Shown here: positions 1,738 to 61,708 of the stretch, piece after piece
Numbering within the stretch: the stretch's first letter is position 1
Layout: each line of letters starts with the position of its first letter
Assembly (NCBI GenBank): GCA_017983615.1
Contig: JAGOBB010000002.1
Span: 1-64,000 of the forward strand
From: Azonexus sp.
GTDB taxonomy: Bacteria; Pseudomonadota; Gammaproteobacteria; Burkholderiales; Rhodocyclaceae
Reading direction: 5' to 3'
DNA length: 64,000 nucleotides
Made by a program: the position numbers and the translations under genes
The notes under the pieces: generated by a model
What the model was told of the DNA's origin: nothing
Database searches by the model: none
What the model saw: the letters and a program-made list of their open reading frames with translations, nothing else

Positions 1738-1771
1738 AATGCTACGGTCGGTGCCAAAAAACGGCCAATTT
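1738..1771 (+). repeat. USS-like element, copy 1
   Basis: Core AATGCTACGGTCG with T tract position 1 at 1740, then AAAAAA at +17 to +22 and AATTT at +28 to +32. The segment between the tracts can pair (GGCC-like arms around the A-run). It sits between parA and the DUF3579 gene and just touches the parA stop codon. Confidence 0.85.
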
Positions 1772-2532
1772 CACAAATCGCCGCGTTCGGTCAATTCGTG
1801 CAGAAGTTGCTTATAGTCGTGTGCGCCGGGGCTGGAACTGTTGTGCCGGAAGACGTCCCGGTTCAGCGAGGGACTTTCGGCGACGGCGACATTTTCTGAA
1901 ATGACGACATCGAGGACGTCGTCGCCGTAACGTTCGCGCAGCTTGGTGCGGATGTCGTCGCTCATCCGGCGTCGGCGGTCGAACCGGGTGAGCAGGTAGC
2001 GGCGTTCGACGCGGCGCTTGAGCACGGGCTCAAGGACTTTTAGCGTGCGGGTGATGTGTTCGGCCGCTTGTAGCGACAGGTAGTCGGTTGATACCGGAAT
2101 GACCAGGCAGTCGCAGGCGAAGATGGCGTTGAGCGCCAGCACGCCGATGTAGGGGCAACAGTCGATAATGCAGGGGCGGCGGGTTTCGCTCGCTTCCAGT
2201 TGCTCCAGGCCGAGGCGCAGCTTGTTGAGGACGGCGGGGCCTTTGCCGAAGATAGAGTCGACCTTGATCAGTTGCTGGTGGGCGGGGATCAGGTGGCCAA
2301 TGTGCTCCCATGGTACTTCAAGGTCGTTCAGCGAACAGGTGTCCTGAAAGAATGCAAACAGGCTGCGGTTGGCCTCTGCGGGCGTTGTTCCATGGATGCT
2401 GGAGAGGTGCCCCTGGGGGTCGAGATCGATCAGCAGCGGTGGCCTTTCGGCACGACTCAGGGCGGCCCCGAGATTGAGGGCTGTCGTCGTTTTTCCGACG
2501 CCGCCCTTCTGGTTGAATATGGCGATGCGCAT
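1771..2532 (-). CDS. Orphan ParA/Soj family ATPase
   Basis: A 253-residue ParA-type ATPase. The deviant Walker A motif FNQKGGVGKTTTALNL is at residues 6-21, DLDPQGH (Walker A') at about 37, and a Walker B-like IIDCCP at about 120. These dimeric ATPases position DNA or protein cargo on the nucleoid. No ParB gene or parS-like site lies nearby, so this is not the main chromosome partition pair. The gene reads away from argD, and its 3' end touches a USS-like element. The cargo is unknown; roles in positioning of pili, chemoreceptors or other complexes are possible for orphan ParAs but not shown here. Confidence 0.85.
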   Translation of the reverse strand: MRIAIFNQKGGVGKTTTALNLGAALSRAERPPLLIDLDPQGHLSSIHGTTPAEANRSLFAFFQDTCSLNDLEVPWEHIGHLIPAHQQLIKVDSIFGKGPAVLNKLRLGLEQLEASETRRPCIIDCCPYIGVLALNAIFACDCLVIPVSTDYLSLQAAEHITRTLKVLEPVLKRRVERRYLLTRFDRRRRMSDDIRTKLRERYGDDVLDVVISENVAVAESPSLNRDVFRHNSSSPGAHDYKQLLHELTERGDL

Positions 2533-2622
2533 GGTTCTGTCTTCTATACAAGGCGCTATTTTTCACTTAACATTCAGGTTTCTGCAACTAATTCCGCTAC
2601 CCGGCGAGAGTTGCGGTCGTTT

Positions 2623-2646
2623 CGGCGGCAATGGCCGCCGTTTTTG
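2623..2646 (+). terminator. Terminator-like hairpin in the argD leader
   Basis: Stem CGGCGGC/GCCGCCG with an AATG loop, followed by TTTTTGTTTT. It ends about 18 nt before the argD start codon, so it would stop transcription before argD unless bypassed. That makes it a candidate attenuator; a terminator for an upstream short transcript is the alternative. Confidence 0.5.
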
Positions 2647-2663
2647 TTTTATGGGGTTGCCTC

Positions 2664-3836
2664 ATGTCGCATGTCATGAATACCTACGCCCGGTTGCCGG
2701 TGGCGTTCAGCCACGGCCAGGGTAGCCGGATTACCGATACCGAGGGCAAGGAATATCTTGACGCCTTGTCCGGGATTGCCGTTTCGACGCTCGGCCATGC
2801 CCATCCCAAGCTGGTTTCGGCCATTGCCGCCCAGGCCGGCCGTGTGTTGCATACCTCCAATCTCTATGGAATTACTGGCCAGGAACAGCTCGCTGACAAG
2901 CTGTGCGAACGTTCCGGCATGCAGGAAGTTTTCTTCTGCAATTCCGGCTGCGAGGCCAACGAGGCGGCGATCAAGCTGGCGCGTTTCTACGGGCACAAGC
3001 AGGGGATTGAATCGCCGACCATCATCGTGATGGAAAAGGCTTTCCACGGCAGGACCATGGCGACGCTGTCGGCGACTGGCAACCGCAAGGCACAGGCCGG
3101 CTTCGAGCCGCTGGTGCATGGCTTCCTGCGCGTGCCCTACGACGATCTCGACGCGATCAAAACGATTGCCGAGCACAACAACAATATCGTTGCCGTCATG
3201 CTGGAGATCATCCAGGGCGAGGGTGGCATCCATTTGGCCTCGACGGAATACCAGAAGGGCCTGCGCCAGTTGTGCGATGCCAAGGGCTGGCTGCTGATCT
3301 GCGACGAAGTGCAGTGCGGCATGGCGCGGACCGGCAAGTGGTTCGGCTACCAGCATGCCGGCATCCAGCCGGATATTGCGACACTGGCCAAGGGCCTCGG
3401 CTCGGGCGTGCCGATCGGTGCCTGCATGACCAGCGGCAAGGCGGCCGGTCTGTTCGGGCCGGGCAATCATGGTTCGACTTTCGGCGGTAATCCGCTGGCC
3501 TGCACTGCGGCGCTGACCACCATAGACTGCATCGAGGAAGAGGGCCTGATGGCCAATGCCGAGAAGGTCGGTGCGCTGATCCGCAAGTTGTTTGCTGACG
3601 GTCTGACCGGCGTTGATGGCATCGTCGAAATCCGCGGCCATGGCCTGATGATCGGTATCGAGCTCGACCGGCCGTGCGGCGAACTGGTGGGCAAGGCCCT
3701 GGCTGCCGGCCTGCTGATCAACGTAACGGCCGACAAGGTCATTCGCCTGCTGCCACCGCTGACCTTCAGCGAAAATGAGGCAAAAGAACTGGCCGACCGT
3801 AGCATTCCGCTGATCAAGGCTTTCCTGGCGGGTTAA
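2664..3836 (+). CDS. argD: Acetylornithine aminotransferase
   Basis: A 390-residue class III PLP aminotransferase. It transfers an amino group from glutamate to N-acetylglutamate semialdehyde in arginine synthesis and may also act in lysine synthesis. Visible landmarks are the DALSGIAVSTLGHAHP start region, FCNSGCEANEAAIKLAR for phosphate binding, DEVQCGMARTG, and the PLP lysine in IATLAKGLGSG (Lys243). I chose ATG 2664 (MSHVMNTYARLP) because it matches the family N-terminus; an upstream ATG at 2631 falls inside the leader hairpin. argF follows 3 nt later and argG after that. The C-terminal codons (ELADRSIP) are part of a USS-like element. Confidence 0.95.
   Translation: MSHVMNTYARLPVAFSHGQGSRITDTEGKEYLDALSGIAVSTLGHAHPKLVSAIAAQAGRVLHTSNLYGITGQEQLADKLCERSGMQEVFFCNSGCEANEAAIKLARFYGHKQGIESPTIIVMEKAFHGRTMATLSATGNRKAQAGFEPLVHGFLRVPYDDLDAIKTIAEHNNNIVAVMLEIIQGEGGIHLASTEYQKGLRQLCDAKGWLLICDEVQCGMARTGKWFGYQHAGIQPDIATLAKGLGSGVPIGACMTSGKAAGLFGPGNHGSTFGGNPLACTAALTTIDCIEEEGLMANAEKVGALIRKLFADGLTGVDGIVEIRGHGLMIGIELDRPCGELVGKALAAGLLINVTADKVIRLLPPLTFSENEAKELADRSIPLIKAFLAG
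3773..3806 (-). repeat. USS-like element, copy 2, inside argD
   Basis: On the minus strand the core GAATGCTACGGTCG is followed by TTCTTTT at +17 to +23 and ATTTT at +29 to +33. It codes in frame for part of the ArgD C-terminus. Confidence 0.75.
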
Positions 3837-3839
3837 ATC

Positions 3840-4760: not shown

Positions 4761-4792
4761 GCGGCAGGGTTAAACGAAACTAGGGAACGGAA

Positions 4793-6271: not shown

Positions 6272-6274
6272 GCG

Positions 6275-6499
6275 ATGGAAGGCGGTACCGTATTCGGGTT
6301 CAATGAAGAGCAGATCGCGGATTTCTTCTCGACCTGGGGCGTTGCTGCCTTCATTATCTTCATGCTGTTCATCATCGGCGAGATCGCCTACAAGTCCAAG
6401 GCCGGCAAGACGGGTACCTTCGTGCTGTTCTTCGTCCTTGCCTTTGGCATGGTTGGCTTTGTTGCCAAGTCTGTCATTCAGAAAATCTGGGGTATGTAA
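6275..6499 (+). CDS. DUF2788 small membrane protein
   Basis: A 74-residue protein with two predicted membrane helices (about residues 20-40 and 50-68) separated by a short basic loop (YKSKAGKTG). I recognise it as DUF2788, a family of unknown function. It lies 3 nt after argG and abuts ppnP directly (stop 6499, ATG 6500), so it is cotranscribed with both. Confidence 0.75.
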   Translation: MEGGTVFGFNEEQIADFFSTWGVAAFIIFMLFIIGEIAYKSKAGKTGTFVLFFVLAFGMVGFVAKSVIQKIWGM

Positions 6500-6817: not shown

Positions 6818-6915
6818 TCAGGTAAGAGCCTGGTGCTTGGCGTGCTTTTCCGTACTGCCGTCGCGCCAGCGCCTTGCCCGGCTTGCACGCCGGACTTTTA
6901 ACCCAGGAGTTTTCC

Positions 6916-7410: not shown

Positions 7411-7414
7411 GGCA

Positions 7415-7448
7415 AATGCTACGGTCGGCCCGAAAAAAGGGCCAAAAT
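7415..7448 (+). repeat. USS-like element, copy 3
   Basis: Core AATGCTACGGTCG, AAAAAA at +17 to +22 and AAAAT at +28 to +32. The arms GGCCC and GGGCC flank the first A tract as a perfect inverted repeat. It is intergenic, directly before the yajQ terminator. Confidence 0.9.
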
Positions 7449-7449
7449 C

Positions 7450-7475
7450 AAAAAGGCAGCTTCGGCTGCCTTTTG
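7450..7475. terminator. Bidirectional terminator between yajQ and the amidotransferase gene
   Basis: AAAAGGCAGC and GCTGCCTTTT pair around a stable TTCG loop. The A and T tracts on either side suit both convergent genes. Confidence 0.9.
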
Positions 7476-7479
7476 ACTT

Positions 7480-18900: not shown

Positions 18901-18929
18901 CCGGTCCGGTCTTGGCCGGATCGGTTTTT
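18901..18929 (+). terminator. Terminator after the alpha-E gene
   Basis: CCGGTCCGG pairs with CCGGATCGG (one G-U type pair) around TCTTGG, followed by TTTTT. It directly follows the alpha-E stop codon. Confidence 0.75.
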
Positions 18930-18957
18930 GCCATTTTTTTGGGGCGACCGTAGCATT
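18924..18957 (-). repeat. USS-like element, copy 4
   Basis: On the minus strand, GAATGCTACGGTCG is followed by AAAAAAA at +16 to +22 and AAAAA at +27 to +31. It is intergenic, between the terminators of two convergent genes. Confidence 0.85.
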
Positions 18958-18983
18958 CGGACAAATTTGCAGCCCCAGAAATT

Positions 18984-22806: not shown

Positions 22807-23262
22807 TCAGCGTTCCTTGAACTGCTTGTGGCAGCTCTTGCAGGCCTGGTGCACCTTGTCGTAAGCGGCTTCCGACTGTGCCTTGTCCTTGCGCTGAGCG
22901 GCGGCCAGCAAGGCATCGGTGGCAGCGAGGAAGGCCTGCTTTTCCTTCTCGAATTGTTCCGCCTGCTTCCAGACCTCGGGCGTTGCCTTGGTCGGCGGGT
23001 AATTGGTGTCCGGGCCAAAATGCGACCACGGTCCGTCGCGTCGGGCCATCAGCCGTTCGGCGTGCATGGCGAACTTGTCAGCATCGTAGCGGTTCTCGCG
23101 CAGCATCACGCCCATCGGCTCGAAGGCCTTGACGATCTCCTTGAACGCCGTCTGCCGCGTTTTGACCGGCTGGCCGGGTCGCGTGTCCTCGACTTCGCCG
23201 CAAGCGGCCAGCAATGCTACGGTCGAGAGCAAAAAAAGGCGAAATCTGAAAAACTGGAACAT
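22807..23262 (-). CDS. Cytochrome c'-like heme lipoprotein
   Basis: A 151-residue protein with a lipoprotein signal (LSTVALLAACGE, lipid Cys near residue 21) and a single C-terminal heme site CKSCH four residues from the characteristic end of cytochrome c' proteins. The middle (AFKEIVKAFEPMGVMLRE...AERLMARRDGPWSHFGPDT) fits that four-helix family. Cytochromes c' bind NO and protect denitrifying or sulfur-oxidising cells; most are soluble, so the lipid anchor is unusual. Residues about 6-17 of the signal peptide are encoded by a USS-like element. An FNR-type box lies 111-124 nt upstream, shared with the divergent dnr-like gene. Confidence 0.85.
   Translation of the reverse strand: MFQFFRFRLFLLSTVALLAACGEVEDTRPGQPVKTRQTAFKEIVKAFEPMGVMLRENRYDADKFAMHAERLMARRDGPWSHFGPDTNYPPTKATPEVWKQAEQFEKEKQAFLAATDALLAAAQRKDKAQSEAAYDKVHQACKSCHKQFKER
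23213..23246 (+). repeat. USS-like element, copy 5, encoding a signal peptide core
   Basis: AATGCTACGGTCG, then AAAAAAA at +17 to +23 and AAAT at +28 to +31. It is read in antisense by the cytochrome c'-like gene and encodes the hydrophobic segment FRLFLLSTVA of its signal peptide. Confidence 0.85.
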
Positions 23263-24193: not shown

Positions 24194-24616
24194 ATGCAAC
24201 AGACCATCAGCTTCATCACCCTTGGCGTCGCCGATCTGGCACGCAGCAGGGCGTTCTACAAGGCGCTCGGCTGGCAGGAGTCGTCGGCCAGCCAGGAGGG
24301 CATCGCCTTCTTTCAGGCTGGATCGGTGGCCTTTGCCCTGTTCCAGCGCGAGGCGCTGGCCGAAGATGCTACGGTGTCGGCGATGGGGAGCGGCTTTTCC
24401 GGATTCACGCTGGCACATAACGTGCCGTCGGAGGCCTCGGTGATCGCCACGCTGGACGAGGCCGTGGCGGCTGGTGCCACCATGGTGCGCCCGGCCGACA
24501 AGGTATTTTGGGGCGGCTATCGTGGCTATTTTGGCGATCCGGACGGCTTCTTGTGGGAAGTCTGCTTCAACCCCTTCATCCCGCTGGATGCGGAAGGTTT
24601 CGTCAAGCTTCCTTAG
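24194..24616 (+). CDS. VOC/glyoxalase superfamily protein
   Basis: A 140-residue protein with two beta-alpha-beta-beta-beta modules: ISFITLGVADLARSRAFYKALGW at the N-terminus and VFWGGYRGYFGDPDGFLWEVCFNP near the end. The latter is typical of the glyoxalase/bleomycin-resistance fold with a metal-binding Glu. Substrate unknown. It starts 35 nt after the dnr-like gene and may be cotranscribed. The codons for DATVSAMG carry the core of a USS-like element. Confidence 0.85.
   Translation: MQQTISFITLGVADLARSRAFYKALGWQESSASQEGIAFFQAGSVAFALFQREALAEDATVSAMGSGFSGFTLAHNVPSEASVIATLDEAVAAGATMVRPADKVFWGGYRGYFGDPDGFLWEVCFNPFIPLDAEGFVKLP
24365..24398 (+). repeat. USS-like element, copy 6, weak, in the VOC gene
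   Basis: Exact core GATGCTACGGT, but the first A/T tract is missing; only TTTT at +29 to +32 remains. Coding for ATV in the VOC protein. Confidence 0.55.
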
Positions 24617-24760: not shown

Positions 24761-27700
24761 GTGTCCATCCATGTTGCACTGAATCACGTAACCACCTATA
24801 GCTACGACCGCCTGATCAATCTCGGTCCGCAGATCATCCGTCTGCGCCCCTGCCCGCATTCGCGGACACGTGTCCTGTCGTATGCGCTGAAGATCGGCCC
24901 GGAAACGCACTTCATCAACTGGCAGCAGGACCCGCAGGGCAACTACCTGGCCCGTCTGGTCTTCCCGGAAAAGACTCGCGAATTCAAGATCGAAGTCGAC
25001 ATGGTGGCCGAAATGTCGGTCATCAACCCCTTCGATTTCTTCCTCGAGCCGCACGCGGAGGAGATTCCCTTCGATTACGAAGCCTGGCAGCGTCACGAAC
25101 TGACGCCCTACCTGTACAAGCTGCCGGCGACGCCGCTATTCCAGAAATACCTCGACGGCATCTCGCGCGAGAAGATGCGCAGCGTTGATTTCCTGGTCGC
25201 CCTGAATGCCCAGGTGCAAAAGACGGTTGGCTACACGATCCGGATGGAGCCGGGCGTCCAGACGCCCGAAGAAACGCTGGAGAAGAAGACAGGCTCCTGC
25301 CGGGACTCTGCCTGGCTGCTGGTCCAGATACTGCGCCACCTTGGCCTGGCTGCCCGCTTCGTTTCAGGCTACCTGATCCAGCTGACGGCTGACGTCAAGT
25401 CGCTCGATGGCCCCTCAGGCCCCGAAGCCGACTTTACCGACCTCCACGCCTGGGCCGAGGTTTATTTGCCGGGCGCCGGCTGGGTCGGCCTCGATCCAAC
25501 CTCCGGCCTGTTTGCCGGCGAAGGCCATATTCCGCTCGCCTGTACGCCGGAACCCGGCTCGGCCGCGCCGGTCACTGGCGGCCTGGACGAGTGCGAAACC
25601 GAGTTCGGTCACCACATGCAGGTCACTCGCGTCTGGGAGGCGCCCCGCGTCACCAAACCTTACACTGACGAGCAGTGGGTCGAGATCGAAGGCCTCGGTC
25701 ACCAAATTGATGAAAAGCTGCTCGAAATGGACGTCCGCCTGACCCAGGGCGGCGAACCGACTTTTGTCGCCGCCGAAGACCCGGACGGCGCAGAATGGAA
25801 TACCGCTGCCCTTGGCCCGACCAAGCGGTTCTACGCGGCAGAGTTGTTCCATCGCCTGCGCGAAAAATATGCCCCCAACGGCCTGATGCACTTCGGCCAG
25901 GGCAAGTGGTATCCCGGTGAGCAGCTGCCGCGCTGGTCACTGAACTGCTTCTGGCGCAAGGATGGCGAGCCGATCTGGAATTCTCCGGCGCTCTATGCCA
26001 ACGAAAAGATCAACTATGGCGCCACCAGCGAGCATGCTGACCGCTTCCTCAAGCGCGTCGCCGAACGCCTCGGCGTGACCAGCGACTACGTCTTTCCGGC
26101 CTTCGAGGATGCCTACTACTACATGTGGCGCGAGCGCCGCCTGCCGGGCAACGTCGACCCCTTCGACTCGCGTGTCGACGACCCGCTTGAACGCGCCCGG
26201 CTGATGAAAGTCTTCACACAGGGCCTGACCTACACGGTTGGTCATGTACTGCCGATCATGAAGAATACCCGCAACGAATGGCAGACCGGCCCATGGTTCC
26301 TGCGCGCCGAGCGCTGCTACCTGTTCCCCGGCGATTCGGCCATGGGCTATCGCCTGCCGATCGACTCGCAACCGTGGACGGCGCAGAGCGACTACCCCTA
26401 CGTCAATGTGCCCGATGCCGAAACGGCGACCGATCCGCTGGCCAGCTACGCCGCCCTGCGCGGCCGGGTTTCCGGTCAGGCCGAGACGCGGATGCAGCTG
26501 CGTCCGCCCGGCGCCGCCGATGGGCGGGTTGGCGAAGGCAAGGGCAGGGCCTGGGAAAAGCCAACCGACACCGTGCCCGGCTTCAAGGAATCGGCCGGCT
26601 GGATCACCCGCCTCGCCATGTGCGCTGAGCCGCGCGACGGCAAGCTCTACATCTTCATGCCGCCGGCCAACACGCTCGACGATTACCTCGAAATCGTCGC
26701 CGCCGTCGAGGCGACGGCCGAGGAAATGTCCATGCCGGTCATCATGGAGGGCTATACGCCGCCGTCCGACCCGCGCCTGACACATTTCAGCGTGACGCCC
26801 GACCCCGGCGTCATCGAGGTCAACGTCCATCCGGCGCGCAGTTGGGATCAACTGGTTGACCAGACGACCCACCTCTACGAGTCGGCCTACTACACCCGCC
26901 TGACCACCGAGAAGTTCATGGTCGACGGCCGTCACACCGGCACCGGTGGCGGCAACCACTTCGTGCTTGGCGGCGCGACGCCGAACGACTCGCCTTTCCT
27001 CCGCCGTCCGGATCTGTTGAAGAGCCTGATTGCTTACTGGCACAACCATCCCAGCCTCTCCTACCTGTTCTCGGGTTTGTTCATCGGGCCGACCAGCCAG
27101 GCGCCGCGTGTCGACGAGGCCCGCAACGATTCGCTCTACGAACTGGAAATTGCTTTTAATCAGATTCCGCAGCCCGGCGGTTTCGTGCCGCCCTGGCTGG
27201 TAGACCGCATCCTGCGCAATCTGCTGATCGACGTGACCGGCAACACACACCGGTCAGAGTTCTGCATCGACAAGTTGTACTCGCCGGACGGCCCGACCGG
27301 CCGTCTCGGCCTGCTCGAATTGCGCGCGTTCGAAATGCCGCCGCACGCCCGCATGTCGCTGACCCAGCAATTGCTGCTGCGCGCGATGATCGCCCGTTTC
27401 TGGGAAGAACCCTACGAACCGGCCCGGCTGGCCCGCTGGGGTACCGAGCTGCACGACCGCTTCATGCTGCCGCACTACGTCGAGCAGGACTTCCGCGACG
27501 TCATGGAAGAAATGCAGCAGGCCGGCTACGCGTTCAAGGCCGAATGGTTTGCGCCACACTTTGAATTCCGTTTCCCGAAATACGGTGATTTCGCCGTCAA
27601 GGGCATCGATTTCGAATTGCGTCATGCCCTCGAACCCTGGCACGTGATGGGCGAGGAAGGCAACGTCGGGACTACGGTGCGCTTTGTCGATTCCTCGGTC

Positions 27701-28111
27701 GAGCGCGTCCAGGTCCGCATCAAGGGCATGGCGCCCGATCGCTACGTGCTGACCTGCAACGGCGTGCCGGTTCCGCTGCAGAACACTGGCACAAATGGCG
27801 AATTCGTCGCCGGCATCCGCTACCGCGCCTGGCAGCCGCCGTCCTGCCTGCATCCGAACATCGGCGTCCACGCACCGCTGGTCTTCGACATCGTCGATAC
27901 CTGGATGCAGCGCTCGCTGGGCGGTTGTCAGTACCATGTCGCGCACCCCGGTGGGCGCAGTTTCGACACCTTCCCGGTCAATGCCTTCGAGGCCGAGAGC
28001 CGGCGTCTGGCCCGCTTCTTCCGCTTTGGTCACACACCGGGCAAGATGCTGGTCGGGGCGCCGGAAGTCAGCGCCGAGCACCCGTTTACGCTAGACTTGA
28101 GGCGTTTTTAA
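24761..28111 (+). CDS. Transglutaminase-like protease fused to DUF2126
   Basis: A 1116-residue protein, probably cytoplasmic. Residues 1-90 form a transglutaminase N-terminal domain (LNHVTTYSYDRLINLGPQ). The transglutaminase core follows, with Cys in TGSCRDSAW (near 180), His in DLHAWAEVYLP (near 227) and Asp in GLDPTSG. From about 300 to the end it is DUF2126, including VRLTQGGEPTFV and the Glu/Arg-rich blocks typical of glutamine synthetase/GCS-like ligase folds. The start is GTG 24761 with CGGAG upstream. The domain set suggests that it cuts or transfers amide bonds in concert with the ATP-grasp ligase encoded next. It is preceded by NtrC/sigma-54 sites. Confidence 0.9.
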   Translation: MSIHVALNHVTTYSYDRLINLGPQIIRLRPCPHSRTRVLSYALKIGPETHFINWQQDPQGNYLARLVFPEKTREFKIEVDMVAEMSVINPFDFFLEPHAEEIPFDYEAWQRHELTPYLYKLPATPLFQKYLDGISREKMRSVDFLVALNAQVQKTVGYTIRMEPGVQTPEETLEKKTGSCRDSAWLLVQILRHLGLAARFVSGYLIQLTADVKSLDGPSGPEADFTDLHAWAEVYLPGAGWVGLDPTSGLFAGEGHIPLACTPEPGSAAPVTGGLDECETEFGHHMQVTRVWEAPRVTKPYTDEQWVEIEGLGHQIDEKLLEMDVRLTQGGEPTFVAAEDPDGAEWNTAALGPTKRFYAAELFHRLREKYAPNGLMHFGQGKWYPGEQLPRWSLNCFWRKDGEPIWNSPALYANEKINYGATSEHADRFLKRVAERLGVTSDYVFPAFEDAYYYMWRERRLPGNVDPFDSRVDDPLERARLMKVFTQGLTYTVGHVLPIMKNTRNEWQTGPWFLRAERCYLFPGDSAMGYRLPIDSQPWTAQSDYPYVNVPDAETATDPLASYAALRGRVSGQAETRMQLRPPGAADGRVGEGKGRAWEKPTDTVPGFKESAGWITRLAMCAEPRDGKLYIFMPPANTLDDYLEIVAAVEATAEEMSMPVIMEGYTPPSDPRLTHFSVTPDPGVIEVNVHPARSWDQLVDQTTHLYESAYYTRLTTEKFMVDGRHTGTGGGNHFVLGGATPNDSPFLRRPDLLKSLIAYWHNHPSLSYLFSGLFIGPTSQAPRVDEARNDSLYELEIAFNQIPQPGGFVPPWLVDRILRNLLIDVTGNTHRSEFCIDKLYSPDGPTGRLGLLELRAFEMPPHARMSLTQQLLLRAMIARFWEEPYEPARLARWGTELHDRFMLPHYVEQDFRDVMEEMQQAGYAFKAEWFAPHFEFRFPKYGDFAVKGIDFELRHALEPWHVMGEEGNVGTTVRFVDSSVERVQVRIKGMAPDRYVLTCNGVPVPLQNTGTNGEFVAGIRYRAWQPPSCLHPNIGVHAPLVFDIVDTWMQRSLGGCQYHVAHPGGRSFDTFPVNAFEAESRRLARFFRFGHTPGKMLVGAPEVSAEHPFTLDLRRF

Positions 28112-28138
28112 CCCAAAAAATGCATCGACCGTAGCAAC
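28105..28138 (-). repeat. USS-like element, copy 7
   Basis: On the minus strand, TTGCTACGGTCG is followed by ATTTTTT at +16 to +22 and TTAAAAA at +26 to +32, so the spacing of the A/T tracts is kept while their strand composition differs. It overlaps the 3' end of the transglutaminase gene and the foot of the next hairpin. Confidence 0.8.
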
Positions 28139-28178
28139 AGGCCAGAGACGCTCTGTTTCCGGCCTGTTTGTCTTTTTT
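28136..28178 (+). terminator. Terminator-like hairpin inside cassette 2
   Basis: AACAGGCC pairs with GGCCTGTT across a 17-nt loop, followed by TGTCTTTTTT. It lies between the first two genes, 10 nt before the second start codon, and would reduce downstream expression relative to the first gene. Confidence 0.6.
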
Positions 28179-28187
28179 CCCAGCTGA

Positions 28188-30710: not shown

Positions 30711-30712
30711 GT

Positions 30713-31669
30713 ATGCCCGCCGTCCGCTATCACGTCCTGCACGAGACCCGCTACGACTACGGCAGCCCGGTGTCGCTTTCGCAGCAGCAGTTGCATCTCT
30801 CGCCGCGGGTTCTCGACTGGCAGCAGGTCGAGGAACAATGCATCAGCATCGAGCCGCCGCCGACCTGGCGTCGTGACGGTCAGGATGCCTTTGGCAATCC
30901 CGTTACCTGGGTGGCTTTCCATGTGCCGCACGACAGCCTGGTCATTCGTTCGGTCATGACTATCGCCGTGGCGCCCCACCTGCCGGGCGATCTTGACGAT
31001 TCCCTGGCCTGGGAGGAGGTGCGCGACCGGCTGGCTTACGATGCGACCGACCCGCGTCCGGAAGATCTCGGTGCCACCCGTTTCCTGTTCGAAAGCCCGC
31101 ACGTCCGCATCAAGCACGAGCTGGCGGCTTACGCCGCCGATTGCTTTCCGCCGGGAACGCCGGTCCTGGTCGGTGCCGAGCGATTGATGGCAAAAATTTT
31201 CGACGAGTTCGAATTCGACCCGGAAGCGACAACGGTGTCTACGCCGGTGCTCGAGGTGCTGGAAAACAAGCGTGGCGTCTGCCAGGACTTCGCGCATCTG
31301 ATGATCGCCTGCCTGCGGGCACTCGGCCTGGCTGCCCGCTACGTCAGCGGCTACCTGCTGACCCGGCCGCCTCCGGGCAAGCCGCGCCTGATCGGGGCCG
31401 ACGCCTCGCATGCCTGGGTCTCGGTCTATTCGCCGGGTGAAGGGCACGACTGGGTCGATTTCGATCCGACCAACAACCTGTTGCCGAACACCGAGCACAT
31501 CACGCTGGCCTTTGGCCGCGACTTCAGCGACATCTCGCCGCTGCGCGGCATCATCCTCGGCGGCGGCGGCACCGAACCCGAGGTGGCGGTGACAGTCTTT
31601 CCGCTCGATGAAGAAGAAATCCCCGAGGATCTGCTCACCGGGCCGAGCGACAAGAAGGACGGCGCCTGA
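30713..31669 (+). CDS. Transglutaminase family protein
   Basis: A 318-residue protein with an N-terminal transglutaminase beta domain (VRYHVLHETRYDYGSPVSLSQ) and a papain-like core: Cys in NKRGVCQDFAHLMIACLR (near 187), His in ASHAWVSVYSP (near 240) and Asp in WVDFDPTN. Such proteins are predicted proteases or amide-bond exchangers. It is the last gene of cassette 2 and, with the DUF2126 protein, gives the system two different thiol enzymes. The flavoprotein gene follows 2 nt later with a GTG start, so it is probably cotranscribed. Confidence 0.9.
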   Translation: MPAVRYHVLHETRYDYGSPVSLSQQQLHLSPRVLDWQQVEEQCISIEPPPTWRRDGQDAFGNPVTWVAFHVPHDSLVIRSVMTIAVAPHLPGDLDDSLAWEEVRDRLAYDATDPRPEDLGATRFLFESPHVRIKHELAAYAADCFPPGTPVLVGAERLMAKIFDEFEFDPEATTVSTPVLEVLENKRGVCQDFAHLMIACLRALGLAARYVSGYLLTRPPPGKPRLIGADASHAWVSVYSPGEGHDWVDFDPTNNLLPNTEHITLAFGRDFSDISPLRGIILGGGGTEPEVAVTVFPLDEEEIPEDLLTGPSDKKDGA

Positions 31670-31671
31670 CG

Positions 31672-32913
31672 GTGGCGCGTGTCGCCATCATCGGCGGCGG
31701 CCCGGCCGGCCTGATGGCGGCCGAGGCGCTGGCTACGGCAAATGCTACGGTCGGCCCGAAAAAAAGGCCAAAAATAGAAATTTTCGATGCCATGCCCTCG
31801 TTCGGCCGCAAGTTCCTGATGGCCGGCAAGGGCGGCATGAATATCACGCATTCCGAGCCTTTGCCCGATTTCGTCCGGCGCTACGGGGTACGTTCGGACC
31901 GCATTGCACCACTGCTCGATGCCTTCGGTCCGGCCCAGTTGTGCGAGTGGATTCATGGCCTCGGCATCGAGACATTTGTCGGTACCTCGGGGCGGGTATT
32001 TCCGACAGAGATGAAGGCAGCCCCGCTGCTCCGCGCCTGGCTGCACCGCCTGCGCAGCCAGGGGGTGCATTTTCATGTCCGCCATCGCTGGCTGGGCTGG
32101 GCCGACGACAGGTTGAGATTTGCCTCGCCGGACGGCGAAGTCGAAGTCGAGGCCGATGCAGTGATTCTTGCCCTCGGCGGCGGCAGCTGGGCGAAGCTCG
32201 GCTCCGATGGCGCCTGGGTGCCGCTGCTGTCCGGGTGCGGCGTGCCGGTCGTCCCGCTGAAGCCGGCCAACTGCGGTTTCGAGGTGACGTGGAGTGACTA
32301 TTTCAGCGAGCGATTCGCCGGCGCGCCGGTCAAGGCTGTCGTCGCGTCGGTTGGGGCACATCGCCAGCAGGGCGAATTCAACATCACGGTGACCGGTATC
32401 GAGGGCGGGCTGATCTATGCGCTTTCAGCGCCCCTGCGCGATGCGCTGGCGCGTGACGGCCACGCTGCACTGACCCTCGACCTGGCGCCGGGACGCAGCC
32501 TGGAACGGCTGACCTCTGATCTGTCGCGTCCGCGTGGCCACGATACGCTGGCCAATCACCTGCGTCGGCGCGCCGGTATCGAAGGCGTCAAGGCGGCACT
32601 GCTCCGTGAATTTTGCCCGCTGGAGAGGCTAACCGTAGCATTTGACCTGGCGACGGCGATCAAGTCGCTGCCGCTGCCAGTGACGGCCACCCGGCCGCTC
32701 GACGAGGCGATCAGTACTGCTGGCGGCGTTGCTTTCGAGGCCGTGGACGACGCCTTGATGCTGACTGCCATGCCCGGTGTTTTCTGCGCCGGAGAGATGC
32801 TGGACTGGGAAGCGCCGACGGGCGGTTACCTGCTCACTGCCTGCCTGGCCAGCGGCCGGGCGGCCGGCCTGGGCGTGCGGCAGTGGCTGGACCGTCGGCT
32901 CCCGGAAAATTAG
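31672..32913 (+). CDS. BaiN-like FAD flavoprotein (TIGR03862 type)
   Basis: A 413-residue flavoprotein starting at GTG. The FAD motif [18 protein letters not shown] is followed by [19 protein letters not shown] and, at the end, [23 protein letters not shown]. Substrate unknown. Between the first helix and second strand of the Rossmann fold it has about eight more residues ([11 protein letters not shown] region, residues 24-34) than its relative at 19961-21175; this insert is exactly a USS-like element read in frame. A second, weaker copy lies at 32609-32642. Its stop overlaps the convergent kinase gene. Linkage to the peptide-modifying cassette may be operonic only. Confidence 0.88.
31741..31774 (+). 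repeat. USS-like element, copy 8, in-frame insertion
   Basis: AATGCTACGGTCG, AAAAAAA at +17 to +23 and AAAAAT at +28 to +33, with GGCC arms. It encodes [12 protein letters not shown] in a loop of the flavoprotein's FAD domain. Confidence 0.9.
32609..32642 (-). repeat. USS-like element, copy 9, partial
   Basis: On the minus strand, AAATGCTACGGT has the exact core and AAAATT at +27 to +32, but the first tract is absent. It lies in the coding region for LTVAFDLA of the flavoprotein. Confidence 0.65.
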
Positions 32914-41991: not shown

Positions 41992-42049
41992 TCGCTGCGG
42001 TCCCGGGCTAGTCTCGGGCTTGTCGCCCTGCCAGCGGCAGGGTTGGCAA

Positions 42050-42083
42050 AATGCTACGGTCAGCGCCGAAAAAGGCGGAATTT
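42050..42083 (+). repeat. USS-like element, copy 11
   Basis: AATGCTACGGTCAG, AAAAA at +18 to +22 and AATTT at +28 to +32, with CGCC/GGCG arms. It overlaps the stop and last codons (KFRLFRR) of the minus-strand glycosyltransferase gene. Confidence 0.85.
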
Positions 42084-43682
42084 CTCTTTTCGGTCGCCGG
42101 GGCGATTGCCTTCCCAGACCTTGCTCCATTGACCGTCTGGCGCTGCCAGTTCGCCGCGCGTGTCGCCAACTACCAGCAACCAGTTGCAGGCCTGGCCGGC
42201 CTTCGAGGCTTCGGCAACCGGTTCGATTTCGACGAAGTAGGCCAGCGAAGCCAGTTGAGTGTCGGTCAGGCCGCGCTCGGCCAGGCAGCCGTGATTTTCC
42301 GGCAGCGCCCGGGCGATGGCCTGGGCGACCGGGCGGTAGGTCTTGCCGTAGTCGAACCAGGGCAGGATCAGCGTTGTTGCCAACAGCCACAGTGTCGTGA
42401 AGCCGAGCGTCCAGTGAGTCAGGCTGCGGTAGGGGGAACGCTGTGCAGTCAAGATCAGCCAGATCCACCAGGCGGTCGCAGTCAAGCCGATGATCAGGGC
42501 CAGCAGGTCGAACTGGCCGACAAATCCGGGACGCAGCACGACCAGGCGTTTCGCCAGTTTTTCCGGCCAGCCGAGCGCCATGGCTGACCAGCATACCCAG
42601 ACGGCCGCGGCGAACAGGCTGAAGGTCGACATCGCAAACCAGTCAAACGCGTTGGCGGCACCACGGCGCAGGGCCAGGGCGCCCGGCGTGGCAAGCAGGG
42701 CGAGCGGGGGCAGGAGCAGCAGCGAGGGAATTTCACGCGGACGGTAGGCCCAGGCCAGCATCAACAGGGTGATCAGCAGGAAAACCAGGGGCAGCAGTTG
42801 TTGCGGGGCTTTGAGATCATGGCGGCGAATCCACAGGGTCCAGCCGGCCAGCGGCAGGGCAGGGAAGGCAAACCAGGGCAGCATACCGAGAAAACGGCTG
42901 CCCCCGACGAAGGAGAATGGCGTCTGCAGCGGGGCCAGTTCGGTGGCCAGCCAGTTGTGGAAACGAGCGGGTTCGAGACTGAGTAACATCAACGCCCACG
43001 GCAGGCTCAGTACGACGGCGATTGCCAGGCCGATGAGCAGGGTGTGCAGGGCCTTCGGGCGGTCCGGCGACAGCCACCAGGCGACCGGAGCGATGGCCAG
43101 CAAGGGCAGGGTCGGGGCGATGCCGGTACCGAGCAGGCAGCCAGCAATCGCCAGTCCAAAATAGATGCCCGTCAGGCGCGGTTTGCGGCCGATGGCGGCC
43201 AGGGCGCCGAGACCGCCGGCGTAGGCGGCGAGGGCGATCAGCATCGGCTGCGCGTCATGGGCATGGAACAGCAGGCCGGCGCAGCCTGCGAGCAGTAGCG
43301 GGCTGGCGGCAGCCGATTCCTCGCCATAAAGTTCGCGGCCGGCGTAGTACAGGCCCATCAGCGCCAGCGCGATCCAGACGCCACTGGCCAGACGGATGGC
43401 TTCGTGCAGGGGGAGGAGCCAGCCGAACATCTTGCCAGTCAGCGCCGCGGTCCAGTAATAGAGGGGGGGTTCGTGGAACGGGCGGCCTGCCAGATCGGGC
43501 GACAGCCAGTCGCTGTAATGCAGCATGTGCCACGCGGTACCGATGTGAATGGCGTCCTCGCCCTTCCACGGGTCGCGCCCGAACAGGCCAGCCAGGACAT
43601 AGAAGGCAAGCATGGCGGCGAGCATCCACCCGGCCGGAGGCAGGCGGATGCCGCGACGGATCAGCGCGAGAAAGGCAGGCAT
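42060..43682 (-). CDS. ArnT/GT39-like membrane glycosyltransferase
   Basis: A 540-residue inner-membrane protein with about a dozen hydrophobic helices. The first periplasmic loop has GRDPWKGEDAIHIGTAWHML with the acidic pair typical of GT-C enzymes, followed by FHEPPLYYW. The family (ArnT, PMT) transfers sugars from polyprenyl phosphate donors to lipid A or proteins. The substrate is not predictable here; there are no lipid A modification genes nearby. The C-terminus ends in a USS-like element. The start at 43682 lies just beyond the rpmE terminator. Confidence 0.83.
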   Translation of the reverse strand: MPAFLALIRRGIRLPPAGWMLAAMLAFYVLAGLFGRDPWKGEDAIHIGTAWHMLHYSDWLSPDLAGRPFHEPPLYYWTAALTGKMFGWLLPLHEAIRLASGVWIALALMGLYYAGRELYGEESAAASPLLLAGCAGLLFHAHDAQPMLIALAAYAGGLGALAAIGRKPRLTGIYFGLAIAGCLLGTGIAPTLPLLAIAPVAWWLSPDRPKALHTLLIGLAIAVVLSLPWALMLLSLEPARFHNWLATELAPLQTPFSFVGGSRFLGMLPWFAFPALPLAGWTLWIRRHDLKAPQQLLPLVFLLITLLMLAWAYRPREIPSLLLLPPLALLATPGALALRRGAANAFDWFAMSTFSLFAAAVWVCWSAMALGWPEKLAKRLVVLRPGFVGQFDLLALIIGLTATAWWIWLILTAQRSPYRSLTHWTLGFTTLWLLATTLILPWFDYGKTYRPVAQAIARALPENHGCLAERGLTDTQLASLAYFVEIEPVAEASKAGQACNWLLVVGDTRGELAAPDGQWSKVWEGNRPGDRKEKFRLFRR

Positions 43683-45925: not shown

Positions 45926-46528
45926 TCAGCTCCCGGATTTGAGCAGATTGGCCAGTTCAACTGCGGTCTTGACCTGCATCTTGTCGAACAGGTTGGCCCG
46001 GTGAACCTCGACGGTGCGCATGCTGATGTTTAATTCGTCGGCAATGATCTTGTTGAATTTTCCTGCGACGACCAGTTCCATGACTTGCCGTTCGCGGGTC
46101 GTCAAACTGGAAATTCGTGCTTTTACCGAATCGACCGTAGCATTTGCGGCGCGTTGACGAGCATCGAGCGCCATGGCTTCCTCGACGCGGGTGGCCAGTT
46201 CGTTGTCGTTGAGCGGCTTTTCAAAAAAATCGAACGCCCCTTTTTTCAGGGTCGCTACGGCCAGGGGAACATCGCCATGGCCGGTCAGGAATATGACCGG
46301 CAGGGTCGACTGGCGTTCGCCTAGCTGGTCGAAGCAATCCAGTCCGCTCATCCCCGACATGCGCATGTCGAGTACGACGCAGCCACTCATTCCCTTGTGC
46401 CAGGCGGCGAGAAAACTCTCCGCCGAGTCGAAGGCAGTGCATGGAAGCCCGCGCGACTTCAGCAGCCAGGAGAGGGCGTCGCGGATCGCTTCGTCGTCAT
46501 CGACAAGATAGGCTTGGGGCATGCTCAT
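45926..46528 (-). CDS. dctR: FixJ/NarL-type response regulator of the DctR type
   Basis: A 200-residue response regulator. The receiver has [15 protein letters not shown] and the phosphorylated Asp in [14 protein letters not shown], with Lys in FFEKPL. A LuxR-type helix-turn-helix ([26 protein letters not shown]) follows. GGGAG before ATG 46528 supports the start. Its ATG overlaps the kinase stop (ATGA). Divergent dctA and then dctPQM make C4-dicarboxylate uptake the likely target. The interdomain linker ([11 protein letters not shown]) is encoded by a USS-like element. Confidence 0.88.
46111..46144 (-). repeat. USS-like element, copy 12, in dctR
   Basis: On the minus strand, AAATGCTACGGTCG is followed by TAAAA at +18 to +22 and AATTT at +28 to +32. 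It is in frame and encodes the [12 protein letters not shown] linker between the receiver and DNA-binding domains. Confidence 0.8.
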
Positions 46529-53402: not shown

Positions 53403-54089
53403 ATGAAATTCGCCCTTGCCATCGTTGCGCTCATTCTCGCCGCCCTGATTCTTCCTTTTTTCATGCCGGGCGCCGGGAGGCAGGATGGGATTGATCCGAA
53501 CAGCAATCTGCCCTGGCAGATCGAGCTTGACGGGCAGGGCGGTAGCCGCGTTTTCGGGCTGAAGCCAGGTGTCAGCACGCTGGCGGATGTGCGGCAGCAA
53601 CTGGGGGGCGAGATTGAGGTGGCCATCATCGCCGAACCCGGTGAAGTCGGCACGCTGGAGGGTTATTGCTCGCAGGTGTCGCTCGGTTTTGTCATGGCCA
53701 AGGTGATTGCTACGGTCGATGCCAAAAAAGAGGCAATTTCTGAAATGCGTGATCGTGCAATCAAGGCCAAACACATGGAAAGCACGACGCGCCGGATTAC
53801 CTTGCATCCGGATGACCTTGCTGCAGCCGACAATATGCCGATCAAGGCGATTTCTGTGATCCCGACGGTGAATCTCGACGAGGAAACGGTAGTGCAGCGT
53901 TTTGGCCCACCGGGCGAACGCCTGGTCGTTTCCGAAACGCGGGTCCATCTGCTCTATCCGGACAAGGGGCTCGATGTGGTGGTGGACCGCGATGGCAAGG
54001 AGCTCCTGCAGTATGTGGCGCCACGCGACTTTGCCCTGCTACGCGATCCATTGAAGGCGTCCGGCAGCGGAAAAACCGTTGCGCAGTGA
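53403..54089 (+). CDS. Conserved-looking membrane-anchored protein of unknown function
   Basis: A 228-residue protein, not recognised. The N-terminus is an uncleaved-looking anchor (FALAIVALILAALILPFFMPGAG), so most of it should be periplasmic. A mixed alpha/beta region with LKPGVSTLADVRQQLGG near 53 recalls short SmpA/BamE-like folds in which a GxS-xxxV-xxxLG loop is repeated; VVQRFGPPGERLVVSETRVHLLYP near 163 could be a second such unit. That resemblance is weak. Codons for IATVDAKKEAISEM (about 102-115) are a USS-like element. It lies alone between dctM and ndk. Confidence 0.65.
   Translation: MKFALAIVALILAALILPFFMPGAGRQDGIDPNSNLPWQIELDGQGGSRVFGLKPGVSTLADVRQQLGGEIEVAIIAEPGEVGTLEGYCSQVSLGFVMAKVIATVDAKKEAISEMRDRAIKAKHMESTTRRITLHPDDLAAADNMPIKAISVIPTVNLDEETVVQRFGPPGERLVVSETRVHLLYPDKGLDVVVDRDGKELLQYVAPRDFALLRDPLKASGSGKTVAQ
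53706..53739 (+). repeat. USS-like element, copy 13, in-frame
   Basis: ATTGCTACGGTCG, AAAAAA at +17 to +22 and AATTT at +28 to +32, with TGCC/GGCA arms. It encodes IATVDAKKEAIS in the hypothetical protein. Confidence 0.85.
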
Positions 54090-57388: not shown

Positions 57389-57391
57389 GCC

Positions 57392-58621: not shown

Positions 58622-59907
58622 GTCAAACCTTGCAAGCCGTCCGCGGGATGAACGATGTCCTGCCGGAGGAAGCCGAGTTCTGGGAGTTGTTCGAGGACAC
58701 GATCCGTTCGTGGCTGAAGGGCTACGGCTATCGGCCGATCCGCATGCCCATCGTCGAGCCGACGCCCCTGTTCAAGCGTGCCATCGGCGAAGTGACAGAC
58801 ATCGTCGAAAAGGAAATGTATTCCTTCATCGACGGTCTGAACGGCGAAGCGCTGACGCTGCGTCCGGAAGGTACGGCCGGATGTGTGCGGGCCGTCATCG
58901 AACACAACCTGGCAGCCCGCCAGACCCAGCGCCTGTACTACCTCGGCCAGATGTTCCGCCACGAACGTCCGCAAAAGGGACGGTACCGGCAGTTTCATCA
59001 GGTTGGCGTCGAGTCGTTCGGTATGGCCGGACCAGATATCGATGCAGAAATGATCCTGATGGGCGCCCGTCTGTGGACCGATCTTGGCCTCGAGGGCATC
59101 GAACTGCAGCTCAACAGCCTGGGCCAGTCAGACGAACGCGCCCAGCACCGCGCGGCGCTGATTGCCTATTTCGAGGAAAATGCGGAAATCCTCGATGAGG
59201 ATGCCAAGCGCCGCCTGCATACCAATCCGCTCCGAATCCTTGATACCAAAAATCCGGCGATGCAGGATCTGTGTGCTACCGCACCGAAGCTGATCGACTA
59301 TCTCGGCGCCGAGTCGCTGGCTCATTTCGAAGGGGTCCAGCGCGTGCTGCGCGATGCCGGTGTTCCCTTTACGATTAACCCGCGTCTGGTGCGAGGCCTC
59401 GATTACTACAACCTGACCGTCTTCGAGTGGGTGACCGACAGGCTCGGTGCTCAGGGTACGGTTTGCGCCGGCGGGCGCTACGATGGCCTGGTCGAGCAAC
59501 TGGGCGGCAAGGCAACACCGGCCTGCGGCTTTGCAATGGGCGTCGAACGGCTGATTGCACTGATCAAGGAATCCGGCGGCGAGCCGGCGGCGCCGGCACC
59601 CGATGTCTACCTCGTGCATCAGGGCGACGCGGCATCGCGTCTGGCTTTCCGCGTCGCTGAAGGCTTGCGCGACCAGGGGATCAACGTATTGCAGCATTGT
59701 GGCGGCGGCAGCTTCAAGTCGCAAATGAAGAAAGCCGATGGTAGCGGCGCGACCTTTGCCGTGATCATCGGCGACGACGAAGCCGAGACTGGCAAGGCAC
59801 AGCTAAAGCCCTTGCGCGAGGAAGGTTCGGCGCAACTGAAACTGAGAATCGATGACCTGGCTGAAGCCATCATCGGACAACTGATTGATTTGGACGAAGA
59901 GGAATAA
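58618..59907 (+). CDS. hisS: Histidyl-tRNA synthetase
   Basis: A 429-residue class II synthetase. Motif 2 is in [22 protein letters not shown]. The histidine-specific [15 protein letters not shown] and [12 protein letters not shown] and the C-terminal anticodon domain ([22 protein letters not shown]) are all present. It overlaps ispG by ATGA; the yfgM-like gene follows 2 nt after its stop. Confidence 0.97.
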
Positions 59908-59909
59908 GC

Positions 59910-60548
59910 ATGGCGCACTACGACCTCGAAGAGCAGGAACAGATAGACACCCTGAAAACCTGGTGGAAAATGTACGGCAATCTCGTGACCGGCGTGGTGG
60001 TCGCGGCATCGCTGGGCGTCGTCGGGTGGCAGGGCTGGAACTGGTACCAGTCCGGACAGTCCGGCAAGGCGGCTGCGATTTACGGCGTGCTCGAACAGGC
60101 GGCGGGGGCCGGTGATGCACAGAAGGTCAAGGCTGCAGCAGGTGAGCTGGCCGAAAAGTTTGGCGGTACGGCCTACGCCTCGCTCGGCGCAATGCTCGCT
60201 GCCAAGCAGTCCTTTGACGCGGGCGATCTGAAGACAGCCAAGACCCAGCTGAGCTGGGTCGCCGAAAACGGCAAGGACGAAATCCGGGATCTGGCCCGTC
60301 TGCGTCTGGCTGCCGTACAACTCGACGAGCAGGCCTACGACGATGCGCTCAAACAACTCGATGCCAAGCATGCGCCGGCACTTGACGTACGTTTCCTGGA
60401 ATTGAAGGGCGATGTCCTGAGTGCTCAGGCCAAAAATGCTGAAGCGCGCGCCGCCTACAAGGCCGCACTGGACAAGATGACCGACAAGCCCGGAGCCGGG
60501 CGCGAACTGCTTCAGCAGAAGCTTGACAGCCTTGGCGAGGCTGCCTGA
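59910..60548 (+). CDS. YfgM-like inner-membrane TPR protein
   Basis: A 212-residue protein with a short cytoplasmic N-terminus (LEEQEQIDTLKTWWKMYGN), one membrane helix (LVTGVVVAASLGVVGWQGWNW) and a periplasmic TPR-like region. This matches YfgM/UPF0070, an ancillary SecYEG-associated chaperone. Its position between hisS and bamB is the conserved family context. The stop shares one base with the bamB start (TGATG). Confidence 0.9.
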   Translation: MAHYDLEEQEQIDTLKTWWKMYGNLVTGVVVAASLGVVGWQGWNWYQSGQSGKAAAIYGVLEQAAGAGDAQKVKAAAGELAEKFGGTAYASLGAMLAAKQSFDAGDLKTAKTQLSWVAENGKDEIRDLARLRLAAVQLDEQAYDDALKQLDAKHAPALDVRFLELKGDVLSAQAKNAEARAAYKAALDKMTDKPGAGRELLQQKLDSLGEAA

Positions 60549-61708
60549 TGTCTCGCCAGTTGCTAGCCCTTTTTGCTGCAGCAGGCTTGTTGCTGGGTGG
60601 CTGCGCTACGGTGTCGGATACGTTTGATTCGATCAATCCGTTTGCCAGTTCAGGCCCGAAAATGGCCCCTTTACCAGCCCTCACCGTAGCATCCGAGGTC
60701 AGCGTGCAGTGGTCGGCCAGCATCGGCAAGGCTGGCGACTATACGTTCACGCCGGCCGTCGTGGACAAGAAGGTTTTCGTTGCCGGCCATAACGGAACGA
60801 TCAGCCGGCTTGAAGATGGCAAGGTGGTCTGGAAAATCGATGCCGGTCAGCCACTGTCAGCGGGGGTTGGTGCCAACGCCCGTTTGGTCGTGGTCGGTAC
60901 GCCCAAGGGCGAAGTCTTGGCTTTTTCAGCCGATGACGGCAAGCCCCTATGGAAGGCGCGTGTCTCGAGCGAAGTTTTGGCCGCGCCTGTGGTTGGCGAA
61001 GATGGTGTTGCGGTAAAGAGTGGTGACAATCAGGTCTTCCTTTTTGATGCCGGTGACGGCGGGCGCAAGTGGGTCTATCAGCGGGCAACCCCGCCGCTGT
61101 CGGTGCGCGGTGCCGGTTCTCCTGTGTTTGCCGACCGCTATCTTTTTGTCGGGTATCCCGGTGGCAAGCTGGTAGCGCTGTCGCTGCAAAATGGCGCTCC
61201 GGTCTGGGAAGGGGCAGTTGCCTTGCCCAAGGGCGCTACCGAGCTTGATCGCGTTGCTGACATTGTTGCTTCGCCAATCGTAGATGGACGTCTGATCTGC
61301 GCTGTGGCCTTCCAGGGCCGTGTCGCCTGTTTCGATATGGGGCAGGGCGGAGCCATGACCTGGTCCAAGGATATTTCCTCGGTCGCCGGTCTGGCCATGG
61401 ATGCACGCTACCTGTTTGTGGCAGATGACAAAGGGGTCGTGCATGCCCTGGACCGTTCTTCAGGCAGTAGCCTGTGGAAGCAGGACAAGTTGAAAAACCG
61501 TCGCCTTTCGGCACCGGTAGTTCGTCGCGGGCTGGTTGCCGTGGCCGATGCGGAGGGCATCGTACACTTCCTTTCACGTGAAGATGGTAGCTTTTCAGCG
61601 CGCCAAAAAACCGATGGCACGCCGGTTCGCGCGCCTCTACAAATGCTCGGCTCAGCCCTGCTGGTGCAGACCACCGGCGGCAGCGTGAGTGCAATCGAGG
61701 CGCAATGA
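60548..61708 (+). CDS. bamB: Outer membrane protein assembly factor BamB
   Basis: A 386-residue lipoprotein with lipobox LLLGGCAT (Cys near 19) and an eight-bladed beta-propeller of PQQ-like repeats ([54 protein letters not shown]). It is a Bam complex subunit at the outer membrane. The linker after the lipid Cys ([12 protein letters not shown]) is encoded by a USS-like element. The stop overlaps the der start (ATGA). Confidence 0.95.
60660..60693 (-). repeat. USS-like element, copy 14, in bamB
   Basis: On the minus strand, GATGCTACGGT is followed by TAAA at +19 to +22 and ATTTT at +29 to +33, so both tracts are in register. It encodes the flexible linker of the BamB lipoprotein. Confidence 0.75.

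Follow-up and report, generated by a model that had tools for sequence, protein, structure and literature searches.

A dispersed core-and-tract DNA element in Azonexus with the genomic signature of an uptake signal

Results

The DNA analyzed here, referred to as the window, is a 64-kb stretch of Azonexus sp. (Rhodocyclaceae; positions 1 to 64,000 of contig JAGOBB010000002.1, assembly GCA_017983615.1), in which a short element with the build of a DNA uptake signal is dispersed over both strands. An exact-word count of its core, TGCTACGGT, returned 13 copies, seven on the plus and six on the minus strand, and thereby confirmed both the number and the places given in a first-pass annotation of the same DNA; 100 dinucleotide-preserving shuffles of the window gave a mean of 0.20 copies and a maximum of 2. 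The copies are listed in Table 1 together with two minor-pilin genes at the edge of the window. A scan of the window for RNA families gave zero matches. At 24761-31669 the window also holds an unremarkable gene cluster that encodes a transglutaminase/amidoligase (DUF2126), a circularly permuted ATP-grasp protein with an Alpha-E domain, and another transglutaminase.

Table 1 Copies of the element and minor-pilin genes in the window. For minus-strand copies, the core coordinate is the position of the core's T; G197 is a relative
Feature	Coordinates	Strand	Remarks
Element copy, both tracts	1737..1777, core 1740	+	Core same in G197
Element copy, both tracts, first T-rich	3767..3807, core T 3804	-	CGCTACGGT in G197
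Element copy, both tracts	7414..7454, core 7417	+	Core same in G197
Element copy, both tracts	18918..18958, core T 18955	-	Core same in G197
Element copy, both tracts	23212..23252, core 23215	+	Core same in G197
Core without first tract, probably chance or decayed	24364..24404, core 24367	+	Changed in G197
Element copy, first tract T-rich	28099..28139, core T 28136	-	Core same in G197
Element copy, both tracts	31740..31780, core 31743	+	Core same in G197
Core without first tract, probably chance or decayed	32603..32643, core T 32640	-	Changed in G197
Element copy, both tracts	42049..42089, core 42052	+	Core same in G197; region length varies among other relatives
Element copy, both tracts, within gene	46105..46145, core T 46142	-	Exact in 8/10 relatives
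Element copy, both tracts	53705..53745, core 53708	+	Core same in G197
Weak copy, first tract 4/6 A/T	60654..60694, core T 60691	-	TGCTGCGGT in G197
Minor type IV pilin, Pfam ComP_DUS (PF16732), candidate uptake part	380..778	-	36.4 bits, cut-off 27.3; scanned as longer frame 380-1027
Candidate DNA-binding minor pilin, FimT/GspH type, truncated at contig end	1..377	-	

Alignment on the core of 93 copies from 456.5 kb of the source assembly G000 (the window plus parts of contigs C1, C2 and C4, about 16% of the assembly; 62% G+C) gives a sharp logo of about 40 bp, RAA-TGCTACGGTCG followed by A/T tracts. The RAA triplet is conserved upstream of the core, and just past it are C at +10 (96%), G at +11 (76%) and a C-rich stretch at +13 to +15. 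The first A/T tract occupies +17 to +22 (82–94% A/T) and the second +28 to +32 (84–99% A/T), 11 bp apart from start to start, with GGCC at +24 to +27 between them; C or T follows at +33, then a weaker, A-rich third stretch at +35 to +38 (55–76% A/T), and beyond +40 there is little conservation. Both tracts described from the window are thus found in the larger sample, which adds the third. The strand composition of the tracts varies among copies, as had been claimed, and the T-rich first tract pointed out at 28136 is real.

With the first tract scored as at least five A/T out of six at +17 to +22 and the second as at least four out of five at +28 to +32, both tracts are present in 10 of the 13 window copies rather than in the 11 counted in the first-pass annotation, and the second tract in all 13. 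The first is missing at cores 24367, 32640 and 60691; all three cores are altered in G197, where 9 of the 10 two-tract cores are kept exactly, and these three therefore probably arose by chance or have decayed.

The G000 draft, which is incomplete (2,921,885 bases in 34 contigs, 85.7% complete), contains TGCTACGGT 545 times, 274 forward and 271 reverse, whereas the same word read backwards occurs 57 times (28 + 29). Over-representation far above chance, a hallmark of uptake sequences, is thus genome-wide. The consensus is strong as well, which is another such hallmark: in the 456.5 kb, 93 perfect cores stand against 64 with a single mismatch, compared with a mean of 3.7 perfect (largest 12) and 101 one-mismatch occurrences (range 17–235) for 30 shuffled words, and when both tracts are required the counts are 80 perfect, 3 one-mismatch, 8 two-mismatch and 38 three-mismatch cores. 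An imbalance of this kind has been described as a puzzling trait common to the uptake signal sequences (USS) of Pasteurellaceae and the DNA uptake sequences (DUS) of Neisseriaceae, unlike ordinary protein-binding sites (PMC1626085).

Among the 76 genomes of the genus, exact TGCTACGGT is also frequent in G215 (475), G166 (456), G196 (431), G197 (379), G167 (315) and G161 (202), with lower counts in the rest. In other genera it occurs at most 27 times in each of 146 genomes from a family sample of 150, and at most 12 times in 18 genomes behind named records, e.g., Propionivibrio limicola. A dialect-blind, tract-bearing search pattern, CGGTCRNNNNNWWWWWWNNNNNAWWW, was found at most five times per genome in 373 genomes of other genera; within the genus it has at least 100 copies in 16 of the 76 genomes, 20–99 in 20 and fewer than 20 in 40 (reversed controls, 0–2 per strand). 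On a ComEC tree of 30 genus members the state of at least 100 copies is clustered, with 5 changes versus a shuffled mean of 8.7 (3 of 500 shuffles as low); the tree represents one gene, its forks are weakly supported, and several low-copy genomes fall inside the rich part.

Logos built from 40–100 kb per genome (11–33 sites; reversed-heart controls, 1–7) reveal dialects among relatives, a further hallmark of uptake sequences, and these center on CGGTCRAC. G197 shares the G000 form, AATGCTACGGTCG; G161 and G196 have about TGCTACGGTCAACCGG, and G195, G182 and G191 about TnCCACGGTCAACCGG. The remaining dialects are TGCYGCGGTCRACGGC in G175, TGCTGCGGTCAACCGG in G218 (with G or A at +5), TTTCACGGTCGAC in G147 and TnTTGCGGTCGAC in G160. 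GCGGTC predominates in G175, G218 and G160, where G is found at +5 in 80% of 20, 52% of 33 and 82% of 11 sites, respectively, and ACGGTC predominates in the others. Samples with low yield came from G152 (7 sites, control 1), G153 (7, control 0), G155 (13, control 3), G150 (2, control 1) and G154 (0, control 1), and no other comparably abundant word was found in 120 kb of G112, 180 kb of G154 or 200 kb of G150, all of them motif-poor. In 60 kb of G155, CGCGGTCGAC occurs 12 times (0.6 expected) with weak A/T tracts, and may be a dialect that has decayed or changed. Some dialects have a palindromic heart, GGTCGACC, and opposite elements overlap in dyad symmetry (G156:C2:245435-245458, G156:C7:89407-89430 and G147:C1:2767393-2767434), which recalls the overlapping simDUS/kingDUS pairs of Simonsiella (PMC3630211).

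Copies show no orientation bias, which is likewise typical of uptake sequences. In addition to the genome-wide balance of strands, plus and minus copies number 33 and 32 in negative-skew and 18 and 10 in positive-skew stretches of the G000 sample when divided by GC skew, and G161, a genome in one contig, shows no unusual polarity of all 77 stringent-pattern sites (34 plus, 43 minus) at the best half-circle division (p=0.25); the balance read from the window therefore holds. Spacing in the G000 sample is more even than random (coefficient of variation, CV, of the gaps 0.70 versus 0.96, standard deviation 0.09; none of 2000 simulations as low), with three gaps below 1 kb versus 16.5 expected. 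An element that is abundant, evenly spread and non-palindromic in G000, and that carries A/T tracts typical of bent DNA, could be the binding site of a chromosome-organizing or segregation protein, of the type of FtsK and its FtsK-orienting polar sequences (KOPS), Chi, SMC/ParB or a nucleoid protein. We consider this unlikely: the orientation along replichores that marks KOPS and Chi was looked for in G000 and G161 and not found, perfect copies exceed single mismatches, unlike at ordinary protein sites, and the motif is all but missing from many relatives and takes several dialect forms in a single genus.

Gene locations were taken from a simple gene caller of our own, and are approximate: 47 of the 93 copies are intergenic, one overlaps a gene edge and 45 lie within genes, with a non-coding share of the sequence of 13%. 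The element is accordingly enriched fourfold between genes, although half of its copies sit in genes, in line with the earlier observation in the window and with the non-coding preference that is a hallmark of uptake sequences. Thirty of the in-gene copies are on the gene's strand and 15 opposite; the intergenic ones occur in all gene orientations, 16 of the 47 between convergent genes. Of the 48 non-coding copies, 45 have both tracts, as do 35 of the 45 coding ones; among random positions the shares are 1.4% and 0.3%, respectively.

Individual sites can be followed among relatives. The window aligns with G197 over 63.3 kb at 86.6% identity, and 9 of its 13 cores are exact there versus about 2.5 expected (0.834^9), identity being 0.932 in cores and 0.834 in flanks; G197's own sites are kept in 9 of 11 cases. 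Conservation at orthologous sites, which the first-pass annotation had named as a point to check, is thus found. In a 7.8-kb stretch compared with ten relatives, eight of the 11 genomes carry a site at 41332 that G000, G197 and G215 lack, and its alignment of 76 bases (74 covered in G161, 55 in G166) has zero length difference, so that substitutions created or removed the site; in-place mutation, also a hallmark of uptake sequences, is seen at this one informative site. The core at 46142 has a single base changed in G167 and G172, and the site at 42052 sits in a gap of variable length among relatives. This variable gap, the strong consensus and the many perfect copies of a conserved, roughly 40-bp unit would suit a small mobile or copied repeat, similar to repetitive extragenic palindromes (REP) or miniature inverted-repeat transposable elements (MITE). 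Such an origin is, however, very unlikely given that nearly half of the copies lie inside genes in both orientations, that orthologous sites are conserved, and that the presence or absence by insertion expected of REP or MITE sequences was not seen at 41332, the one informative site. A regulatory or terminator motif, to which the intergenic enrichment and the copies between convergent genes might point, is more doubtful still, since the copies are very numerous for a regulon, 45 of the 93 are in genes, the intergenic ones take every gene orientation, and no two are nearer than 472 bp, which leaves no paired hairpins.

One acquired island, in G161, was studied in detail and was picked after its gap in sites had been seen. 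It extends from about 2.68 to 2.92 Mb, with 52–58% G+C except in the last 20 kb (62%; other samples, 58–63%), encodes catabolic-type proteins and a TrwB/TraD-type conjugative coupling protein, and holds 10 sites in 240 kb (twelve 20-kb pieces) versus 56 in 220 kb elsewhere (eleven pieces). Scarcity in acquired islands, another uptake-sequence hallmark, is thus observed on this island, and DUS density is often drastically lower in neisserial islands (PMC7371117). The G161 island also holds repeated MMPL, DUF1302, biotin carboxylase and molybdopterin genes.

A ComEC-family match is present in 71 of the 76 genus genomes and in all 51 good ones, and in G000 the ComEC frame is open (867 aa) and located on the window's contig. 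The two parts of comEC are separated by about 34 kb in G182 (391 sites) and about 32 kb in G202 (3 sites), in each case within one contig. The DNA between them is GC-poor and in both genomes encodes a type-B DNA polymerase as well as a large serine recombinase; G182 additionally has genes for a type ISP restriction enzyme and for a CHAT-domain protein. These islands (G182:C33:108001-146000 and G202:C1:2217001-2253000) break the gene at about the same point, and perhaps represent an element that blocks its host's transformation. With comEC interrupted in a motif-rich relative such as G182, and with the machinery of G000 not fully seen because the draft is incomplete and a contig end truncates the minor-pilin cluster, the element might be taken for a former uptake signal that is now a relic in G000's species; we give this next to no credence, since perfect copies still dominate, sites are conserved and the G000 ComEC frame is open.

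The ComP_DUS and FimT/GspH pilin genes form a minus-strand pair (window 1-778) about 1 kb from the first copy of the element. The best solved-structure matches of the window pilins are general type IV pilins, not ComP. Two arrangements of the minor-pilin cluster are found in the genus, with PilE/ComP-like genes upstream of FimT or with FimT-PilV-PilW first; arrangements differ between close relatives and similar ones recur across more distant genomes (G161, G195, G182 and G196). G161 and G195 belong to one supported ComEC clade and have similar motifs, and the G195 pilin is 79–83% identical to those of G196 and G182. The ComP_DUS/FimT cluster was considered as the dialect-setting receptor; it is also present in motif-poor genomes, differs between G161 and G195, and remains a candidate only.

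Discussion

The analysis shows the sequence pattern of the element, the signature that it leaves within genomes and between species, and a ComEC gene accompanied by minor pilins. We have considerable confidence that these findings are best explained by an uptake signal for natural transformation, spread by biased transformation; preferential uptake of DNA carrying the element is inferred from them. Nearly every hallmark of uptake sequences that was tested is found. The first-pass annotation had arrived at the same proposal, and none of the three outcomes that it had set against the proposal in advance (genome-wide counts near chance, a strong strand or replichore bias, or a genome-wide logo without conserved A/T tracts) was observed. 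In the mechanism that we envisage, a surface DNA receptor, probably on the type IV pilus, would recognize the CGGTC-centered core, while the helically phased A/T tracts 3' of the core would probably act by bending or loosening the DNA, allowing it to be kinked and pulled through the outer-membrane pore, and ComEC would move one strand into the cell. DNA tagged with the element would be taken up and recombined more often, and point mutations that create tags would therefore spread by biased transformation; tags would come to seed the genome fairly evenly, and dialects would diverge as the receptor changes.

Several observations weigh against this interpretation. ComEC is equally common in motif-poor genomes of the genus, and the machinery alone therefore leaves the motif pattern unexplained. 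Furthermore, six genomes (G157, G160, G169, G182, G202 and G205) have a split or short ComEC match, and islands with a serine recombinase split comEC in the motif-rich G182 and the motif-poor G202, so that some motif-rich genomes may be blocked in transformation and need not be competent. A ComP_DUS-family pilin occurs in 25 of the 26 genus genomes searched, with or without the motif, and the pilins of G161 and G195 are merely 25% identical. The obvious receptor candidate thus fails to track the dialect, and, judging from these comparisons, the receptor is probably another protein, or the pilin cluster is exchanged often. A regular spacing, as is typical of uptake sequences, is seen in the G000 sample, but the 77-site stringent subset of G161 is not evenly spaced (CV 1.23), in part because of its island. 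Finally, the density of exact cores in G000, about 187 per Mb, is below the 500–800 of Hin-type and slightly below the 200–500 of Apl-type USS (PMC12616744).

The element does not carry the Pasteurellaceae USS core, which is AAGTGCGGT in the Hin-type and ACAAGCGGT(C) in the Apl-type (PMC1626085); its core is TGCTACGGT or one of the dialects. It shares with USS the order of a core and then two A/T tracts about one helical turn apart (here +17 to +22 and +28 to +32), the strong consensus, the occurrence on both strands and mostly in non-coding DNA with many copies in genes, the mutational origin and the dialects (PMC1626085), and the distance between tract starts is 11 bp here and 12 bp in the Hin-type. 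In Haemophilus the inner core GCGG is crucial for uptake, and rigid, slightly bent A/T tracts have been proposed to help uptake (PMC7811141, PMC12616744). GCGG is the commonest form in the G160, G175 and G218 dialects, followed by TC as in the Apl-type ACAAGCGGTC. Since these dialects mostly read GCGGTC, the earlier claim that the core is unrelated to known cores stands for Neisseria, but not wholly for the Haemophilus family. On the other hand, the G000 element reads ACGG, TGCT takes the place of AAGT or ACAA in the 5' half of the core, and the first tract begins six bases after GGTC, whereas the USS tract lies just 3' of the core; the element also has a weak third tract and, in most dialects, an RAC extension, and its host is GC-rich and betaproteobacterial.

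With the Neisseriaceae DUS (GCCGTCTGAA, receptor ComP) the element has in common its abundance, the absence of orientation bias, dialects and scarcity in islands (PMC7371117), and a ComP_DUS-family pilin exists in the genus. It is not, however, a DUS-type core (inner CTG) without tracts: the cores are unrelated, Neisseria DUS lack flanking A/T motifs (PMC1626085) whereas the element has tracts, the pilin here does not track the motif, and there are no closely paired copies among the 93. Judged by its core sequence the element is neither USS nor DUS, and by its genomic behavior it is like both. The FimT/GspH pilin that adjoins the ComP-like pilin at the window edge invites comparison with Legionella FimT, a DNA-binding minor pilin (PMC8897410); a sequence preference of Legionella FimT is not reported in the available text of that paper, and the pilin here is a candidate only for such a role.

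The literature found attributes uptake sequences, in the text available, to two families, the Pasteurellaceae and the Neisseriaceae. The first-pass annotation knew of no such element in Rhodocyclales; searches that named the group found no paper, and among the papers listed in the wider literature search no title or abstract describes one, within a coverage that left out most subscription papers and all bioRxiv preprints. Both known families live mainly on mucosal surfaces, and their two kinds of uptake sequence are thought to be convergent in origin. Because the tag described here resembles the signals of the Haemophilus and Neisseria families in its genomic behavior, selectivity in DNA uptake may have arisen once more in evolution. 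We lean toward an independent lineage of uptake signals in the Rhodocyclaceae, convergent on the Haemophilus-family form, with a CGGT inner core, GCGGTC in some dialects and phased tracts. If this is true, the pilus-secretin machinery itself would dictate the form of the signal, and one genus would provide a ladder of stages, i.e., rich, diverging in dialect, thinning and absent, with comEC-breaking mobile islands as a counterforce. A further family with Haemophilus-like architecture would open two long-standing questions to experiment, namely whether selectivity serves to exclude host DNA or is no more than molecular drive arising from receptor bias, and whether the uptake motor imposes the A/T tracts and the CGG core. 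Close relatives with differing dialects, or with few or no copies, are natural material for finding the receptor; the tags, furthermore, mark acquired islands and could aid genetic work in these organisms.

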